Of a stretch of 64,000 nt of DNA, positions 5,428 to 57,861 are shown piece after piece. The position numbers were made by a program, and so were the translations under genes. Each line of letters opens with the position of its first letter. Positions within the stretch are counted from its first letter, which is position 1. Source of the stretch: Verrucomicrobiota bacterium. Lineage in GTDB: Bacteria; Verrucomicrobiota; Verrucomicrobiia; Verrucomicrobiales; Akkermansiaceae. The notes under the pieces were generated by a model, which was not told the origin of the DNA, ran no database searches, and saw only the letters and a program-made list of their open reading frames with translations. The stretch is from assembly GCA_030835305.1 (NCBI GenBank), contig JAURPJ010000110.1:1-64000 (forward strand). Direction: 5' to 3'.

Positions 5428-5993
5428 TCTTCGCGTTGTCTCACCGCTTCATAAAGACAAACGCCGGCCGAAACACTTACGTTCAAACAATCGACAGTAC
5501 CCTTCATTGGAAAGTTCACTAAAAAGTCGCACCCCTTCTCCGTCAATTGTCGCATCCCTTCGCCCTCGCGCCCCATCACAATGGCAATCGGACCTTTTAA
5601 ATCCGTCTTGTAAAGCGACTGGGAAGCCTGATCGGAAGTTCCGACAATCCAAATCCCACGTTCCTTCAGATCCCGCATGGTCCGGGCCAAATTGGTAACT
5701 TTCACAAAAGGCACACTTTCGGCTGCACCTACCGCAACCCTCCTCACGGTGTCGGTCAAGCCAACGGCCTTGTCCTTCGGCGCGATTACAGCATCCACTC
5801 CGGCACCATCAGCGGTCCTCAGGATTGCTCCCAAATTGTTGGGGTCCTGAATGCAATCAAGAATCAACAAAAGAGGCTTCTCTTTTCCATCGAGAATCTC
5901 AAACAAATCACCTTCGCCCCGCAGCCTCGCTTCGCTTTCGCCGCGCGGCCGGGCATGACGATTGTCCCGTGCTTCCCCTGCTCGTTTTCGCAT
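5424..5993 (-). CDS. SpoU/TrmH-family rRNA or tRNA 2'-O-methyltransferase (RlmB-like)
   Basis: 189-residue SPOUT methyltransferase using S-adenosylmethionine to methylate a ribose 2'-OH in RNA. The knot motifs are present: [16 protein letters not shown], then [10 protein letters not shown], then [19 protein letters not shown]. Compared with E. coli RlmB (about 243 residues) the N-terminal L30e-like substrate-binding domain is missing and replaced by an Arg-rich leader ([18 protein letters not shown]). The target nucleotide therefore cannot be assigned. It is the first gene of a two-gene unit with the phosphoesterase and is divergent from the sulfatase at 6062. Confidence 0.9.
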
Positions 5994-22734: not shown

Positions 22735-25419
22735 CTAAGAGACCGGCATCCGGTAAATCAGCCTCAATGAGTCCAGCCTGAGTCGGGCTCCCCCCAGCGC
22801 AGACTCCAGTGCCGCGCGATGACTTTCAAGCTGCTTCAACTCCTCTTGACCGATCATGGGATTCACTTGTGCCAAGTCCACGAGACGGGCTTTCTCGTCA
22901 TCAAGCGCCTGCCTCATTGCCTTGAGAGAGGTGGCGACAACCTTTACCCGGCGTTGACCGGCAAGGACGTGCAAACTTTTCAGCATCGCAGGAATCATTT
23001 CCTGGGTCACTTTGGGTTGTCTCAAAAGCTTGCGATGATTTCCCCTTCTAAGTACGGCTATCATCAGAGCTGAATCAGCGGTGAGATTCCGCCCCTCGTG
23101 ATCGACCGCGACCCGAACCGGAACAGCCGGCAAGAAGTGGTCGGTTTGCAAAGACGCCGGCGCCACACATTCCACGAGGTAAAAGGCTTCCAAAATCACC
23201 GCTTTCGGCCCCGGGGATTCCCAAACTCCGAAGGCACTATTCCCCGCCTCGCTGGAAAGCAGCAGATCGATGGCATTGCGCACCATGGGATGATCGGCAG
23301 ACATCAGCCCGATTTCTTCGCGGCCCAGAGCACGCTCCCGGTCAAAAGTCACCCCCACCCCGTCTTCCGGAACACTGGTAAAGGCGTCGGTAACAACATG
23401 ACCTTGCTTGAACAGATAACCACGTGAATCAAGCTCCTCTACGGCGAGACCAAAATGATCAAAGAGCCTCAATGTCCAGTCTTCAAACTCACGATCACCA
23501 TCCCACGAATCGATCAGCTCCAGCGTCCCATCAATCTCTCCATCACCCTGCGACGAAAGCGCCAACAAACGATCCGCCCCCCGCTCCATTTGAATCTCCA
23601 TTTCAGCCCGGAGCTTCTTTGACTCGCTTATGAAATCAGTCAGAGTCTCCGCCTTGATTTGCTGCAGTCGCTTCACCAGGAGTTGCGCGCCTTGCAAATT
23701 TTTTTCAAAAGCATTCAAACCCTCGTGATACCAACGGGCATACCTCTCACCGGGGTCACCCTTCACAAAGGGAACATGAATATGGATCGTCTTCTTTTGA
23801 CCGATACGATCAAGCCGCCCTATCCTCTGTTCCAGGAGCTCGGGATTTTCAGGGAGATCAATTAAAACAAGATGACGGGCAAATTGGAAGTTGCGACCTT
23901 CACTCCCGATTTCGGAACAGATCAACAGGTCCGCACCATCTTCCTCCGAAAAGTAGGCCGCATTTCGGTCCCGCTGCAATAACGTAAACTCCTCGTGAAA
24001 CTGCGCAATCTTCATATTGACCCGCTCAAGCAACGCCTCGGTCAGATCTTCAACCAACTCGATCGTTTTCCCGATTAGGAGCACCTTTTGAGACGCGTGT
24101 TTCTTTAAAAAACCAACCAACCAGTCCACCTTCACCACAAAAGCATCTTCCCCTTCCAATTCAATGAGATGGGCCTTCCGCTCCGGGAAACCGGTCAATT
24201 GCTTCCGCGTATTTCGGAACATCACGCGACCGGTTCCAAATGAGTCCAGTAAATCGCGGATCACCCGGGAACGCGAACTCGGCTCATTTAACCTTGTCAA
24301 CCCATCGGCAATGCGCGGCGAACGCCCCGCAAACAGCGAAGCGTCGGGCTTGCCTCCGTTTTGGATCATATCGATGGCATCAGCCACCTGTTCATAATAT
24401 CCGGACTCTTCCAAAAATGCCTCCAAATCACTGTAGCGATGTGGATCAAGAAGCTGGAGTCGGGCAAAGTGACCCTCCGCACCAAGTTGTTGGGGAGTCG
24501 CCGTGAGCAAGAGGACCGAGGGAGTTTCAGCAGCAAGCACCTGCACCAGCTCATAGCCTTCACTGGACTCTTCAGGGCTCCACTCCAGGTGATGGGCCTC
24601 ATCTACAACCAGCAAATCCCAGCCAGCATCGATCACTTGAGGAATGCGCTCGGGATGATCCAAAAGAAAATCCTGTGAACAGAGAATCAATTGATTTTCT
24701 TCAAAAGGATTACCTGCGGGAATGGAACGACAACGATCCTCGTCAAAGATTGCAAACAAAAGATTAAATCGCCGAAGGAGTTCGACAAACCACTGGTGAA
24801 CCAATGCCTCAGGCAGAAGAATGAGCACGCGATCAGCCCGACCTGTTAGATTGAGTCGATGCAGAATCAGACAAGCTTCGATGGTTTTACCCAGCCCAAC
24901 CTCGTCCGCAAGGAGCACGCGCGGGGACAGCCTTGAACATACCTCTTTCGCAATGGCAATTTGATGAGGGATGAGATCAATCCGCCCACCCAGAAAACCG
25001 CGAACCGGAGATTGACGAATTTTCGAGGATCGAAACAAGGACTCGATACGCAGATTGAACGTTCGCAGATCATCAACCTGCCCGCCGACGAGGCGGTCCT
25101 CAGGCTTGGAAAAACTGATCGAGTCATCCAACTCACCTTCTTGGAACGCTTGGTCGCCCTCATGATAAACCAAAAGCCCGCCCTCCTCCTCAACCCGATC
25201 AATCCGAATCATCTTTCCAGTGTGGATCAAAACCTCATCCCCCACTTTAAAACGCACTCTCAGGATAGGGGCCGAATCGATTGCAAACGTTCTTTTCTCA
25301 TTCGCCACGGCAAACAAGATGGTTACCCTGTTTCCGCCCGACTCCAACAAAACACCAAGCCCGAGTTCCGGCTCACTGGTGCTGACCCATCGCTGTCCCG
25401 CTACAATATTTTCGCGCAT
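22735..25419 (-). CDS. rapA: RapA-like SNF2 helicase (RNA polymerase-associated type)
   Basis: 894 residues with the RapA layout: two N-terminal Tudor-like beta domains (GQRWVSTSEPELGLGVLLE; KVGDEVLIHTGKMIRIDRVE), Swi2/Snf2 ATPase lobes and a long C-terminal region. Walker A is ADEVGLGKTIEA (residues 171-182), motif II VVDEAHHLEW (272-281), motif III LLTATPQQLG and motif VI EQRIGRLDRIGQ. E. coli RapA (968 residues) recycles stalled RNA polymerase using ATP. Similar architecture supports the same role, although stand-alone SNF2 proteins also occur in defence loci. Divergent from the kinase-phosphatase gene (about 94 bp). Confidence 0.9.
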   Translation of the reverse strand: MRENIVAGQRWVSTSEPELGLGVLLESGGNRVTILFAVANEKRTFAIDSAPILRVRFKVGDEVLIHTGKMIRIDRVEEEGGLLVYHEGDQAFQEGELDDSISFSKPEDRLVGGQVDDLRTFNLRIESLFRSSKIRQSPVRGFLGGRIDLIPHQIAIAKEVCSRLSPRVLLADEVGLGKTIEACLILHRLNLTGRADRVLILLPEALVHQWFVELLRRFNLLFAIFDEDRCRSIPAGNPFEENQLILCSQDFLLDHPERIPQVIDAGWDLLVVDEAHHLEWSPEESSEGYELVQVLAAETPSVLLLTATPQQLGAEGHFARLQLLDPHRYSDLEAFLEESGYYEQVADAIDMIQNGGKPDASLFAGRSPRIADGLTRLNEPSSRSRVIRDLLDSFGTGRVMFRNTRKQLTGFPERKAHLIELEGEDAFVVKVDWLVGFLKKHASQKVLLIGKTIELVEDLTEALLERVNMKIAQFHEEFTLLQRDRNAAYFSEEDGADLLICSEIGSEGRNFQFARHLVLIDLPENPELLEQRIGRLDRIGQKKTIHIHVPFVKGDPGERYARWYHEGLNAFEKNLQGAQLLVKRLQQIKAETLTDFISESKKLRAEMEIQMERGADRLLALSSQGDGEIDGTLELIDSWDGDREFEDWTLRLFDHFGLAVEELDSRGYLFKQGHVVTDAFTSVPEDGVGVTFDRERALGREEIGLMSADHPMVRNAIDLLLSSEAGNSAFGVWESPGPKAVILEAFYLVECVAPASLQTDHFLPAVPVRVAVDHEGRNLTADSALMIAVLRRGNHRKLLRQPKVTQEMIPAMLKSLHVLAGQRRVKVVATSLKAMRQALDDEKARLVDLAQVNPMIGQEELKQLESHRAALESALGGARLRLDSLRLIYRMPVS

Positions 25420-25512: not shown

Positions 25513-26742
25513 ATGCTAACCTTGGCAACAAAAATGAAGGAGCTAAAAGACGGGCTCAGATCACTCGTTCGAATCGACTTCCAGGGACATGTTCACAAGC
25601 GATTCCGCGGGACAGATGCCGACAAACGATTCGCAAATGAAGTGGCTGTTTTGAAGGCACTTGAGGATCGGGGCGCTCCAAATGTGCCCCGCTTGGTTGG
25701 ACATGATGCTGAAACTCACACTCTCATCACCACGAACTGCGGCTCCCCGGCCCCCCTCATCACGGAAGAAAAGGCGCGAGCACTTTTTCAGGAACTGGAA
25801 GAGAAATACGGGATCAAACATGATGACCCCGAACCTCGCAATGTCACCTACTCCCCCCATCTCGGAAAATTTTGCCTGATCGATTTTGAACTCTCCGAAA
25901 TTCTTCCAATGCCGTCGAACCTCGAAACCGGCAAGACCAACGTCCTCAGAGCCAGATGGGCCGCTTCCAGCATTAAGGGCCGAAAACACCTCGCAAACGA
26001 TGACGCGTTACTCGTCCTAACGGTCAACCCTCAATCGACCGACCCACTTCCCAACTCGGGTGAAATCCTCCTCGATCCCTCCCACCTCATGCTCGCTGTT
26101 TCCGATGGCATGGGCGGACAGGACGCCGGAGAATTTGCATCCCGGCTTCTCATATCCCGGATTCGCAAGGAAGCCGACGAACTCTACCACCATCTAGGGG
26201 CCGAAAATGATGCACAATCCGCCCTCGACGCCCTCCTACGCCAATGCCACCACGACGTCACCGAACTCGCGGAACAAAACGGAAACACTAGGGGAATGGG
26301 GGCCACCCTCACCATGGCCTGGATCAGCCATGAGCGTCTTTTCTGGGCGCACATTGGCGATTCCAGACTCTACCTCATCAACGATGAAGGAGTCCAACAA
26401 CTCACCCAGGACGACTGCCGGGCATGGCACCAGTGGCAACGAGGCGAAATTACGGAATATGCCTATCGCAACCATCCTCGAAAATCTGTCTTAAGCGACG
26501 TCCTCGGCGGCAGCCCCCACGAACCCTATCCAAAGACCGGCTCTCTGCCCTTAAAAGACACCCAGCGCCTCATGATTTGCTCGGACGGAATAATGGATGG
26601 TCTCTGGGAAAAAAGCATCCTCGAGATGCTCGCCGAGGATCGGCCAGTCTCCGAGATCATGCAAAATCTCTCCAGAAAAGCCATCGAAAACGACGATCGC
26701 GATGACACGACTCTAATCGTCGCGGAAATATCCCATATTTAG
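25513..26742 (+). CDS. Fusion of a minimal Bud32-like protein kinase and a PP2C phosphatase
   Basis: 409 residues from ATG 25513; an ATG at 25534 and a TTG at 25495 are alternative starts. The N-terminal 130 residues look like a compact atypical kinase: HVHKRFRG with candidate ATP-Lys29, NEVAVLKAL with Glu43, GIKHDDPEPRNV (HxDxxxxN, Asp105) and LIDFELSE (DFE, Asp124). The C-terminal 230 residues form a PP2C: AVSDGMGGQDAGEFAS, MGATLTMAWI, AHIGDSRLYL, RLMICSDGI and DDRDDTTLIV give the metal-binding Asp residues. Both catalytic sets look intact, so the protein could phosphorylate and dephosphorylate its targets or itself. Its stop is three bases before the sigma-54 element of glnA, so its 3' end may carry upstream regulatory sites for that gene. 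Confidence 0.85.
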   Translation: MLTLATKMKELKDGLRSLVRIDFQGHVHKRFRGTDADKRFANEVAVLKALEDRGAPNVPRLVGHDAETHTLITTNCGSPAPLITEEKARALFQELEEKYGIKHDDPEPRNVTYSPHLGKFCLIDFELSEILPMPSNLETGKTNVLRARWAASSIKGRKHLANDDALLVLTVNPQSTDPLPNSGEILLDPSHLMLAVSDGMGGQDAGEFASRLLISRIRKEADELYHHLGAENDAQSALDALLRQCHHDVTELAEQNGNTRGMGATLTMAWISHERLFWAHIGDSRLYLINDEGVQQLTQDDCRAWHQWQRGEITEYAYRNHPRKSVLSDVLGGSPHEPYPKTGSLPLKDTQRLMICSDGIMDGLWEKSILEMLAEDRPVSEIMQNLSRKAIENDDRDDTTLIVAEISHI

Positions 26743-26744
26743 AG

Positions 26745-26761
26745 TTGGCACACCAATTGCT
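26745..26761 (+). promoter_or_regulatory. Sigma-54 (-24/-12) promoter of glutamine synthetase
   Basis: TTGGCACACCAATTGCT matches the YTGGCAC-N5-TTGCW consensus at every fixed position, with the required GG-N10-GC spacing (GG 26747-26748, GC 26759-26760). It faces the glnA start 96 bp downstream and no competing gene intervenes. Transcription would start near 26772. Sigma-54 promoters need an activator bound further upstream, here probably within the kinase-phosphatase coding region. Confidence 0.85.
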
Positions 26762-26856: not shown

Positions 26857-27870
26857 ATGGCAAAATACCGACTCGATTATATCTGGCTGGACGGCTATAC
26901 GCCCGTTCCGAATCTTCGCACCAAGTGCTGCATCAAGGAATTTGATGAGTTTCCAACCCTCGAGCAGCTTCCTGAGTGGGGCTTCGATGGTTCCTCAACC
27001 CAACAGGCTGACGGCGGTGACTCCGATTGCATCCTGAAGCCCGTGGCAGTCTATCCTGACGGAACTCGTGAGAATGGCGCTCTTGTCATGTGCGAAGTCA
27101 TGCTTCCAGACGGAAGCCCTCATCCCTCGAATGCCCGCGCGACCATCCTCGACGACGAAAATGCATGGTTTGGTTTCGAACAGGAATACTTCTTCGTAAA
27201 AGACGGCAACATTCTAGGTTTCCCCAAGGGTGGTTATCCCGAGCCTCAAGGCGGATACTACTGTGGTGTTGGTTACAAGAATGTGGGTGACATCGGGCGT
27301 GCGATCGCAGACGAGCATCTCGACCTCTGCCTCTACGCGGGAATCAATCACGAAGGTATCAACGCTGAAGTGGCCATGGGCCAATGGGAGTTTCAGGTTT
27401 TCGGCAAAGGATCAAAGCGCGCCGCCGACCAGATCTGGGTGGCCCGATTCCTTCTCGAGCGCCTCGGCGAAGAGTACGGTGTCGACATCAACTACCACTG
27501 CAAGCCTCTCAAAGGCGACTGGAATGGCTCCGGTATGCACTGTAACTTCTCCACCAAGAAAATGCGGGAAGAAGGCGGTAAGGAATACTTCGACAAGCTT
27601 ATGGCTTCTTTCGAAAAGAACTGCATGGAGCATATCGCCGTCTACGGCCCAGATAATGATCAGCGCCTGACCGGCCTCCACGAGACCCAGTCGATCGACA
27701 AGTTCTCATGGGGAATCGCTGACCGCGGAGCTTCGATCCGGGTTCCGCACTCGTTCGCGAAGAACGACTGGAAAGGTTATCTCGAGGACCGTCGCCCGAA
27801 CTCGCAGGGTGATCCTTACGCCATCGCCAGCCGCGTTCTGAAGACGATCGCCGAAGCTGACGAAGCTTAA
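26857..27870 (+). CDS. glnII: Glutamine synthetase, type II (eukaryote-like)
   Basis: Makes glutamine from glutamate, ammonia and ATP. At 337 residues it is far shorter than GSI (about 470) and has GSII signatures: EWGFDGSSTQQADGGDSD near the N-terminus, WFGFEQEYFF (metal-binding ExE), AGINHEGINAEVAMGQWEFQ and WNGSGMHCNFSTKKMR. GSII is not controlled by adenylylation, so expression is the likely control point. This fits the sigma-54 promoter and leader inverted repeat ahead of it. A strong terminator follows, so it is monocistronic. Confidence 0.95.
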   Translation: MAKYRLDYIWLDGYTPVPNLRTKCCIKEFDEFPTLEQLPEWGFDGSSTQQADGGDSDCILKPVAVYPDGTRENGALVMCEVMLPDGSPHPSNARATILDDENAWFGFEQEYFFVKDGNILGFPKGGYPEPQGGYYCGVGYKNVGDIGRAIADEHLDLCLYAGINHEGINAEVAMGQWEFQVFGKGSKRAADQIWVARFLLERLGEEYGVDINYHCKPLKGDWNGSGMHCNFSTKKMREEGGKEYFDKLMASFEKNCMEHIAVYGPDNDQRLTGLHETQSIDKFSWGIADRGASIRVPHSFAKNDWKGYLEDRRPNSQGDPYAIASRVLKTIAEADEA

Positions 27871-56454: not shown

Positions 56455-57861
56455 ATGGCAGACGCCTCACTCCACCAGTCGCTTTCCCAGCAGCAGACGC
56501 TAGCTCCGCAGATGCGACAAAGTCTTGAGATTTTGCAGGCGAGCACCCTTGAGTTGGGCCAGTTGCTTAATCAGGCTATGGAGCTCAATCCGGTTCTGGA
56601 AGACATCACCGAGCATGAATCGCTCGATGAAATCACTGATTCCGAGCTTGAGGACTCCGAAAATTATGACGATTGGCAGGAAAGTTATGATGATGACATG
56701 CGGGATCTTGCCATTATGGAGCGTCGCAACCAAGGCCTGGGACAGGATGCCATTGAGGCACGCGAGCACTTTTACAATTCGATTGTCGCCCCCCTGACTC
56801 TCCAGGAGCACTTGATCGAGCAAATTCGTGAAGGCGGCCTTGACGAACAACGCCAGGGAGATGCCAAAATCATCGTCGGCAACCTGACCGACCACGGCTA
56901 TCTCGACGCCCCCCTCGAAGAGCTCGCGATCCAGCTCCAAATCCCCTTGGAACGACTCGAAGATGCCCTTGCCACCATTCAGAATTTTGACCCCCCGGGA
57001 GTTGGTGCGGCCGACTTAAGGGAATGCCTCCTCCTGCAGCTCGACTTCCTAGACCTCGGCGCCGGGCTCGAAGCTGAAATTGTTGATGAGCATCTCGACG
57101 AGGTCGCTCGCAACCACTTTCCGCAACTTGCCAAAAAACTTCACCTTCCGATCGAGACCATCATCGAAGCCATCAACCACATTCGCACGCTCGACCCATC
57201 ACCCGGTTCTCGCTTTCAAAACAATGGCAATCCCTACGTTCAGCCAGACGTCGAAATCAAATCGGGAGATCATGGCGAATGGGTGGCCAGTCTAACCGGC
57301 AGCTACCTGCCCAGACTCCGGATTAACGACGAATACAAGGATCTCCTTTCCAGCTCGACCGATGATCGTAAAACCCGCAACTATCTTCGTAATCAAATCC
57401 GCGACGGACGAGCTGTCATCCGAGCGATCGATCAGCGACAGGAAACCATCCTCGCCATCGCCCGTGAGATCGTCGATCGCCAGCAACCTTTCCTCGAAAA
57501 AGGCTCCCGCCACCTCAAACCCATGACGATGAATGATATCGCAGAAGTGATCGGCGTTCACCCCACTACGGTTTCACGGGCAGTCGCCGGGAAATATATC
57601 GACACTCCGCACGGCTTGATGGAGATGCGCAAATTCTTCGCTACCGGCTACCAGACCTTCGACGGGAAAGACGTTTCCAACGAAGGGGTTCGCGAAGCAT
57701 TGCAGACCCTCATCAACCGTGAGAACAGCACCAGACCGCTTTCTGATTCGAAGCTGGAGAAGTTACTCAATGAACAGGGGATCAAGATCGCCCGCCGAAC
57801 AGTTGCAAAATACCGCGAGCAACTCGGCATCTTGCCCTCACACTTGCGTAAGAAATACTAG
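56455..57861 (+). CDS. rpoN: RNA polymerase sigma-54 factor
   Basis: 468 residues. Region I is Gln-rich (QSLSQQQTLAPQMRQSLEIL), region II is acidic (EHESLDEITDSELEDSENYD), then the core-binding region and the HTH MNDIAEVIGVHPTTVSRAV. The RpoN box ARRTVAKYRE at 446-455 recognises the -24 element. Requires AAA+ activators for open-complex formation; none is encoded in the window. The flanking hpf and ptsN-type genes often found next to rpoN are absent; the Mrp ATPase follows 31 bp downstream. Confidence 0.97.
   Translation: MADASLHQSLSQQQTLAPQMRQSLEILQASTLELGQLLNQAMELNPVLEDITEHESLDEITDSELEDSENYDDWQESYDDDMRDLAIMERRNQGLGQDAIEAREHFYNSIVAPLTLQEHLIEQIREGGLDEQRQGDAKIIVGNLTDHGYLDAPLEELAIQLQIPLERLEDALATIQNFDPPGVGAADLRECLLLQLDFLDLGAGLEAEIVDEHLDEVARNHFPQLAKKLHLPIETIIEAINHIRTLDPSPGSRFQNNGNPYVQPDVEIKSGDHGEWVASLTGSYLPRLRINDEYKDLLSSSTDDRKTRNYLRNQIRDGRAVIRAIDQRQETILAIAREIVDRQQPFLEKGSRHLKPMTMNDIAEVIGVHPTTVSRAVAGKYIDTPHGLMEMRKFFATGYQTFDGKDVSNEGVREALQTLINRENSTRPLSDSKLEKLLNEQGIKIARRTVAKYREQLGILPSHLRKKY

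Follow-up and report, generated by a model that had tools for sequence, protein, structure and literature searches.

A putative minimal kinase fused to a PP2C phosphatase and linked to type II glutamine synthetase in Verrucomicrobiia

The contig JAURPJ010000110.1 of a Verrucomicrobiota bacterium from the Akkermansiaceae (assembly GCA_030835305.1, positions 1 to 64,000, forward strand; this 64,000-nucleotide stretch is referred to below as the window) encodes at positions 25513-26742 a protein in which a very short kinase fold is joined to a PP2C phosphatase. We propose that it is the fused form of a class-wide kinase and PP2C module of Verrucomicrobiia, which would set the phosphorylation of a nitrogen-assimilation target, most likely the adjacent type II glutamine synthetase (GSII, product GlnII of the gene glnII). 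To this reading we assign a probability of about 55%. A dedicated switch for GlnII is favoured because the kinase and the PP2C share one set of 139 genomes, GlnII is present in 138 of these, the starts of the kinase and GlnII genes are at most 2.2 kb apart in 111, and the linkage takes two different arrangements. It is further favoured by the paired duplication of the genes in one genome, by PP2C genes that mostly stay beside GlnII when the kinase has moved, by the single glutamine synthetase of the host and by the lack of a GlnE match there. The lower frequency of GlnE in kinase-containing genomes, the invariant catalytic residues, the repeated changes between fused and unfused forms and the frequent 4-base overlaps of the unfused genes point the same way.

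Domain structure of the fused protein

The open reading frame at 25513-26742 of the forward strand is real and in frame, and a product of 409 residues is read from ATG 25513. By comparison with the family, the true start is more likely ATG 25534 (residue 8), since many homologues begin at the matching methionine, in the pattern M-x-x-x-K-D. The features of the gene are as follows.

25513..26742, forward strand: fused kinase-PP2C gene, open reading frame; the family alignment favours the start at ATG 25534
25534..25905, forward strand: minimal kinase domain, residues 8-131, from models, fold matches and residues invariant in 125 homologues
25597-25599, forward strand: codon of K29, kinase domain
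25639-25641, forward strand: codon of E43, kinase domain
25819-25842, forward strand: H103-N110, catalytic loop of the kinase domain
25882-25890, forward strand: DFE, residues 124-126, kinase domain
25948..26739, forward strand: PP2C phosphatase domain, residues 146-409, with D198, D283, D358 and D397, from PF13672, the Foldseek match to PstP and conservation

The layout is thus a kinase fold of residues ~8-131 followed by a PP2C domain of residues ~146-409. Structures were predicted with AlphaFold2 from class homologues; they are predictions, and their input alignments were drawn from the kinase-PP2C family itself. The full-length protein was modeled with a mean predicted local distance difference test score (pLDDT) of 95.9 and a predicted template modeling score (pTM) of 0.91, and the kinase domain alone with a pLDDT of 93.2 and a pTM of 0.86. 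In the kinase model five N-lobe strands and helix C are followed by a single C-lobe helix, then by the catalytic loop, a pair of strands and the DFE motif; the model stops after DFE and a short strand. An N-lobe with the Lys-Glu pair, a catalytic loop HxDxxxxN and a metal-binding Asp identify it as a protein kinase-like fold, and the C-lobe helices that lie beyond the DFG region of other kinases are missing. This absence is a trait of the family and not an effect of the fusion, since 80 stand-alone homologues also stop soon after DFE (median 17 residues past it; median length ~135 residues).

Lys29, Glu43, H103-x-D105-x4-N110 and D124-F-E126 are all present in the window protein, and K29, E43, H103, D105, N110, D124 and E126 are invariant (100%) among 125 kinase-domain homologues. 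The first-pass annotation, made from the sequence alone, had described a kinase-like domain and a complete PP2C in a single chain with both active sites apparently intact, and had named structure prediction and a survey of homologues as checks that could overturn it. The models, the matches in the PDB and the conservation of residues all agree with that description, and neither a missing kinase fold nor loss of the HxDxxxxN and DFE residues in homologues was found.

Foldseek searches of the PDB with the kinase model gave archaeal RNA kinase Ark1 (E 7e-7), human PRPK (Bud32) and CK2 as top matches, at E ~1e-6. VIA-align Z scores were 11-13, with Rio kinases and others scoring similarly. The earlier label "Bud32/WaaP-like" is only partly apt: the kinase fold and its structural closeness to PRPK/Bud32 stand, whereas the domain, which stops after DFE, is below the cut-offs of both families and is not a typical member of either. 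The Bud32 model TIGR03724 scored 14.8 bits against a curated cut-off of 125 bits, and Kdo/WaaP (PF06293) 14.8 bits against a gathering cut-off of 21.3, other members of the family also matching it weakly. The KEOPS partner Kae1 was absent from the conserved neighbor clusters of the kinase loci, both as a nearby and as a fused gene. The only family above its cut-off was APH (PF01636), with 27 bits for the domain alone against a gathering cut-off of 23.2; the match is partial (profile positions 25-82 of 239, N-lobe only), and a weak APH match was seen in 46 of 48 kinase members. Among these 48 members no model specific to the kinase domain was found in Pfam or NCBIfam, and a sequence search of the PDB returned weak canonical kinases only.

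The PP2C domain is matched by PF13672 (E=5.5e-15), and D198, D283, D358 and D397, its metal-binding aspartates, are invariant in 121 PP2C homologues; a family model above cut-off together with these residues places it in the PP2C/PPM phosphatases. Its best PDB match by Foldseek is PstP (1txo, E=1.8e-19). The NCBIfam Stp1 model gave E=1.9e-46, yet its 158.5 bits fall below the 230-bit cut-off of the Stp1/IreP equivalog NF033484. Comparison of the split genes across genera of the family shows stronger conservation of the kinase (~53-63% identity) than of the PP2C (32-41%). Because both active sites are conserved in the same chain, it is plausible that one protein could write and erase a single phosphorylation.

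Association with glutamine synthetase II

Two further features of the window follow the fused gene.

26746..26760, forward strand: sigma-54 type -24/-12 element TGGCACACCAATTGC, 111 bases upstream of glnII
26857..27870, forward strand: glnII, type II glutamine synthetase, from profile matches and genome search; the only glutamine synthetase of the host genome

We surveyed 286 genomes of Verrucomicrobiia, many of which are incomplete metagenome assemblies, counting a PP2C orthologue at E ~1e-30 or better. Kinase and PP2C orthologues occur in identical sets of genomes (139 of 286). The kinase and GlnII occur together in 138 genomes, the kinase alone in 1, GlnII alone in 3 and neither in 144 (Fisher p ~1e-77, for genomes that are related and not independent). 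The single kinase-only genome (G211) is likely an assembly gap, since no glutamine synthetase of any type was found in that assembly. Among families with both kinase-positive and kinase-negative members, 15 each hold a concordant pair for the kinase and GlnII, and one more family (f19) is discordant (sign test p 5e-4).

GlnII lies either downstream of the kinase on the same strand, as in the window, or divergently from it. The co-occurrence persists where the two genes are unlinked, and most PP2C genes that the kinase has left behind are still divergent from GlnII. In one genome (G015) both the fused kinase-PP2C gene and the GlnII gene are present twice; each fusion adjoins one GlnII gene, and each of the two arrangements is seen once. 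At the level of genes, then, co-occurrence and linkage mark the module as dedicated to one enzyme. The nitrogen link, which the first-pass annotation had offered as only positional, is far stronger than that. Its other suggestion, a link to RNA polymerase through the neighboring RapA-like helicase, did not survive: RapA adjoins the fusion only in the genus of the window (g1, 15 loci). In the window a DUF1853 protein (PF08907; 21901-22710, forward strand) sits beside the full-length RapA homologue (22735-25419, reverse strand), and the pair recurs at several loci, all of that genus.

Elements similar to the sigma-54 element were found upstream of GlnII at 41 of 87 loci, against 0.2 expected from shuffling. 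The host genome has two P-II matches and one rpoN, which lies in the window (56455-57861, forward strand; PF04552, E=1.9e-56) and is followed by a reading frame for an Mrp/ApbC-like ATPase. The GlnE nucleotidyltransferase domain had no match in the fusion protein or in the host genome. Across the class, strong GlnE matches were present in 12 of 139 kinase genomes versus 87 of 147 others (p 1e-20), and type I GlnA in 15 kinase genomes versus 73 others, with cut-offs (GlnE E<~1e-25, GlnA E<~1e-120) picked by eye from the match tables. The kinase and GlnE largely exclude each other. For the most part the class thus splits into lineages with GlnA and GlnE, lineages with GlnII and the kinase/PP2C, and lineages with neither.

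Two observations on the distribution of GlnII may be added. All sampled genomes of one genus in the family of the window (g3, many genomes, e.g. G028) have no kinase, PP2C orthologue or GlnII and possess other glutamine synthetases. A divergent GlnII of 62% identity (G215:C28:104695-105699, locus L184) lies inside a large contig that has neither kinase nor PP2C, and is a natural counter-example. In a published tree, alphaproteobacterial GSII is nested within Verrucomicrobia (PMC2978018).

Fused and split forms of the module

The usual form in Verrucomicrobiia is a separate kinase gene directly upstream of a PP2C gene. Besides the window, the loci that were fetched include 44 fused ones and 63 in which a single stretch carries both genes (62 with the genes near each other, one with them ~8 kb apart). 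In these 63 the kinase always precedes the PP2C on the same strand, often with a 4-base overlap of start and stop. One clade of 13 has the two genes unlinked or widely separated. A tree built from kinase and PP2C together requires at least 4 changes between the fused and not fused states; it is unrooted, so that gain and loss of the fusion are not formally distinguishable in it. Given the frequency of split loci, these changes and the shared set of 139 genomes, comparison of the loci indicates that the module most commonly consists of two genes and that the window has one of several fusions. On the same comparative grounds the fusion in the window is a derived state.

The kinase profile, searched within the phylum, gives ~1e-56 inside the class and no better than 2e-11 among the other members of the phylum. 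The best match beyond the class (E ~1e-11) is a short, related kinase domain in the C-terminal part of a 456-residue open reading frame (L183, G488:C239, ~5577-5876), a possible hint of the origin of the kinase family. A phage origin of the kinase-PP2C was considered and dropped, as viral contigs held no relatives, and 72,556 plasmid records contained no kinase homologue spanning even half of the domain. In genera g7 and g10 the relocated kinase (e.g. L088:877-2271) is directly downstream of an MgtE magnesium-transporter gene at 15 of 17 kinase-only loci. The MgtE and chitosanase-like neighbors are lineage-specific and were rejected as meaningful partners. A conserved cluster of 229-residue open reading frames looks like antisense frames over the kinase and PP2C genes and was set aside.

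Proposed mechanism and alternative explanations

From these patterns we infer the activities of the kinase and PP2C, the identity of the substrate, the effect on glutamine synthetase and the signal. In one nitrogen state the kinase would phosphorylate GlnII, probably on Ser or Thr, and the phosphate would be removed by the PP2C, so that GSII would gain covalent control of the kind that adenylylation by GlnE gives to type I glutamine synthetase (GSI). Lacking the helices by which a kinase normally holds its substrate, this one would probably dock on its target through a partner, either GlnII itself or the PP2C. Bud32 comparably works together with Kae1. A wider proposal, which we put forward more tentatively, is that this minimal kinase family (~130 residues, with no C-lobe beyond DFE) and the PP2C reversibly phosphorylate GSII and replace control of the GlnE type across much of Verrucomicrobiia, the kinase possibly being the smallest natural protein kinase.

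Several points weigh against GlnII as the target of a phosphorylation switch. Known protein kinases have C-lobe helices that this kinase lacks, and its ability to transfer phosphate to a protein is therefore not assured. A class-specific Ser/Thr target in GlnII was sought and gave no clear candidate. Since a single deletion can remove adjacent genes together, co-occurrence and linkage are not wholly independent. The rhizobial GlnII, ~75% identical, lacks a kinase of this kind in its vicinity, which means that GlnII can work without the module; no kinase or PP2C of this kind was found within 3 kb of four GlnII genes in rhizobial and actinomycete records.

Could the target be a regulator, such as P-II, an NtrC-type activator or another protein that binds GlnII, rather than GlnII? 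We think this unlikely, though the likeliest of the alternatives. The two P-II matches, the rpoN gene and the sigma-54 element before glnII would suit such a switch; cyanobacteria are known to have a PP2C that removes phosphate from P-II (Irmler and Forchhammer 2001, as cited in PMC1262709), and tPphA, a PP2C from cyanobacteria, ranks among the best structural matches of the PP2C domain. However, it is GlnII itself with which the module co-occurs, is linked and was duplicated in G015, and P-II linkage was not seen among the conserved neighbors. That the genes simply descended as neighbors, with no functional meaning in their association, is barely credible, even though the module is class-limited and genes passed on side by side can be lost together: there are two gene arrangements, concordance within 15 mixed-state families, co-occurrence of unlinked genes and a parallel duplication in G015.

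The other alternatives concern the small domain. With its truncated C-lobe and its closeness to PRPK/Bud32, it might be a subunit that binds or hydrolyses ATP, the role proposed for Bud32 within KEOPS, and would then gate the PP2C or bind GlnII. This is improbable, as every phosphotransfer residue is invariant, including the HxD aspartate D105, and the PP2C partner suggests a phosphate made to be removed. The APH similarity could instead indicate a small-molecule kinase, acting for example on an inhibitor of glutamine synthetase or on a metabolite related to glutamate, while the PP2C would act separately; but the match is limited to the N-lobe, no substrate-binding C-lobe is present, and co-occurrence with a protein phosphatase is absolute, so we give this idea little credence. 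An RNA kinase acting on tRNA is suggested by Ark1 being the best Foldseek match and is very improbable: many other kinases match about equally by VIA-align Z, no RNA-related neighbor is conserved, and the partners, PP2C and GlnII, suggest a protein substrate. A kinase and phosphatase acting on GlnII remains our preferred reading.

Comparison with known systems

GlnE, the bifunctional adenylyltransferase and adenylyl-removase of GSI, likewise writes and erases a covalent mark on glutamine synthetase, as the fusion would do, and is tied to its synthetase by gene content as the fusion is to GlnII. The domains, however, are unrelated, and the mark is adenylylation of GSI rather than the putative phosphorylation of GSII. 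AceK, the bifunctional isocitrate dehydrogenase kinase/phosphatase dedicated to one metabolic enzyme, is a further parallel; it carries out both reactions in one active site, whereas the fusion, whose target is presumed, has two separate domains. Bud32/PRPK, Rio and archaeal Ark1 are also small kinase folds without a normal activation segment, and are the nearest solved structures. The present kinase is shorter (stand-alone median as above, against 171-173 residues modeled for Ark1) and, unlike Bud32, has no KEOPS partner and scores far below the Bud32 model cut-off. As in the Stp1, PstP and PrpC phosphatases, all metal aspartates are present in the PP2C, which differs in having a minimal kinase as partner instead of a PASTA-type Hanks kinase and in falling short of the Stp1 equivalog cut-off.

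A kinase/PP2C fusion as such is not new, and fusions of this type were reported in Pseudomonas (PMC1262709). Those also join the two domains in one polypeptide, but with the PP2C N-terminal and a Hanks-type kinase, whereas in the window the kinase is N-terminal, has ~130 residues and is not recognised as a Hanks kinase. A study of R. palustris, in which adenylylation of its GSII was not detected, proposed that only GSI has conserved this type of modification (PMC10100968). Our literature search, with many subscription papers outside its reach, found no report of this kinase family, of a kinase dedicated to bacterial GSII or of any dedicated modifying system for that enzyme, and nothing relevant on Verrucomicrobia kinases, PP2C or glutamine synthetase.

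Significance

Covalent control of glutamine synthetase is a textbook paradigm that is known for GSI, where GlnE exerts it. The kinase-PP2C pair, strictly co-inherited and tracking GlnII, is a concrete and testable candidate for such control in a large and little-studied class. Inherited almost one-for-one with GlnII, the pair suggests an undescribed on/off switch for nitrogen assimilation. The stand-alone kinases, which end just past the metal-binding motif, also raise the question of how small a part of the fold suffices for phosphotransfer. If the proposal is correct, Verrucomicrobiia would have a phospho-switch for bacterial GSII, operated by what may be the smallest natural protein kinase.
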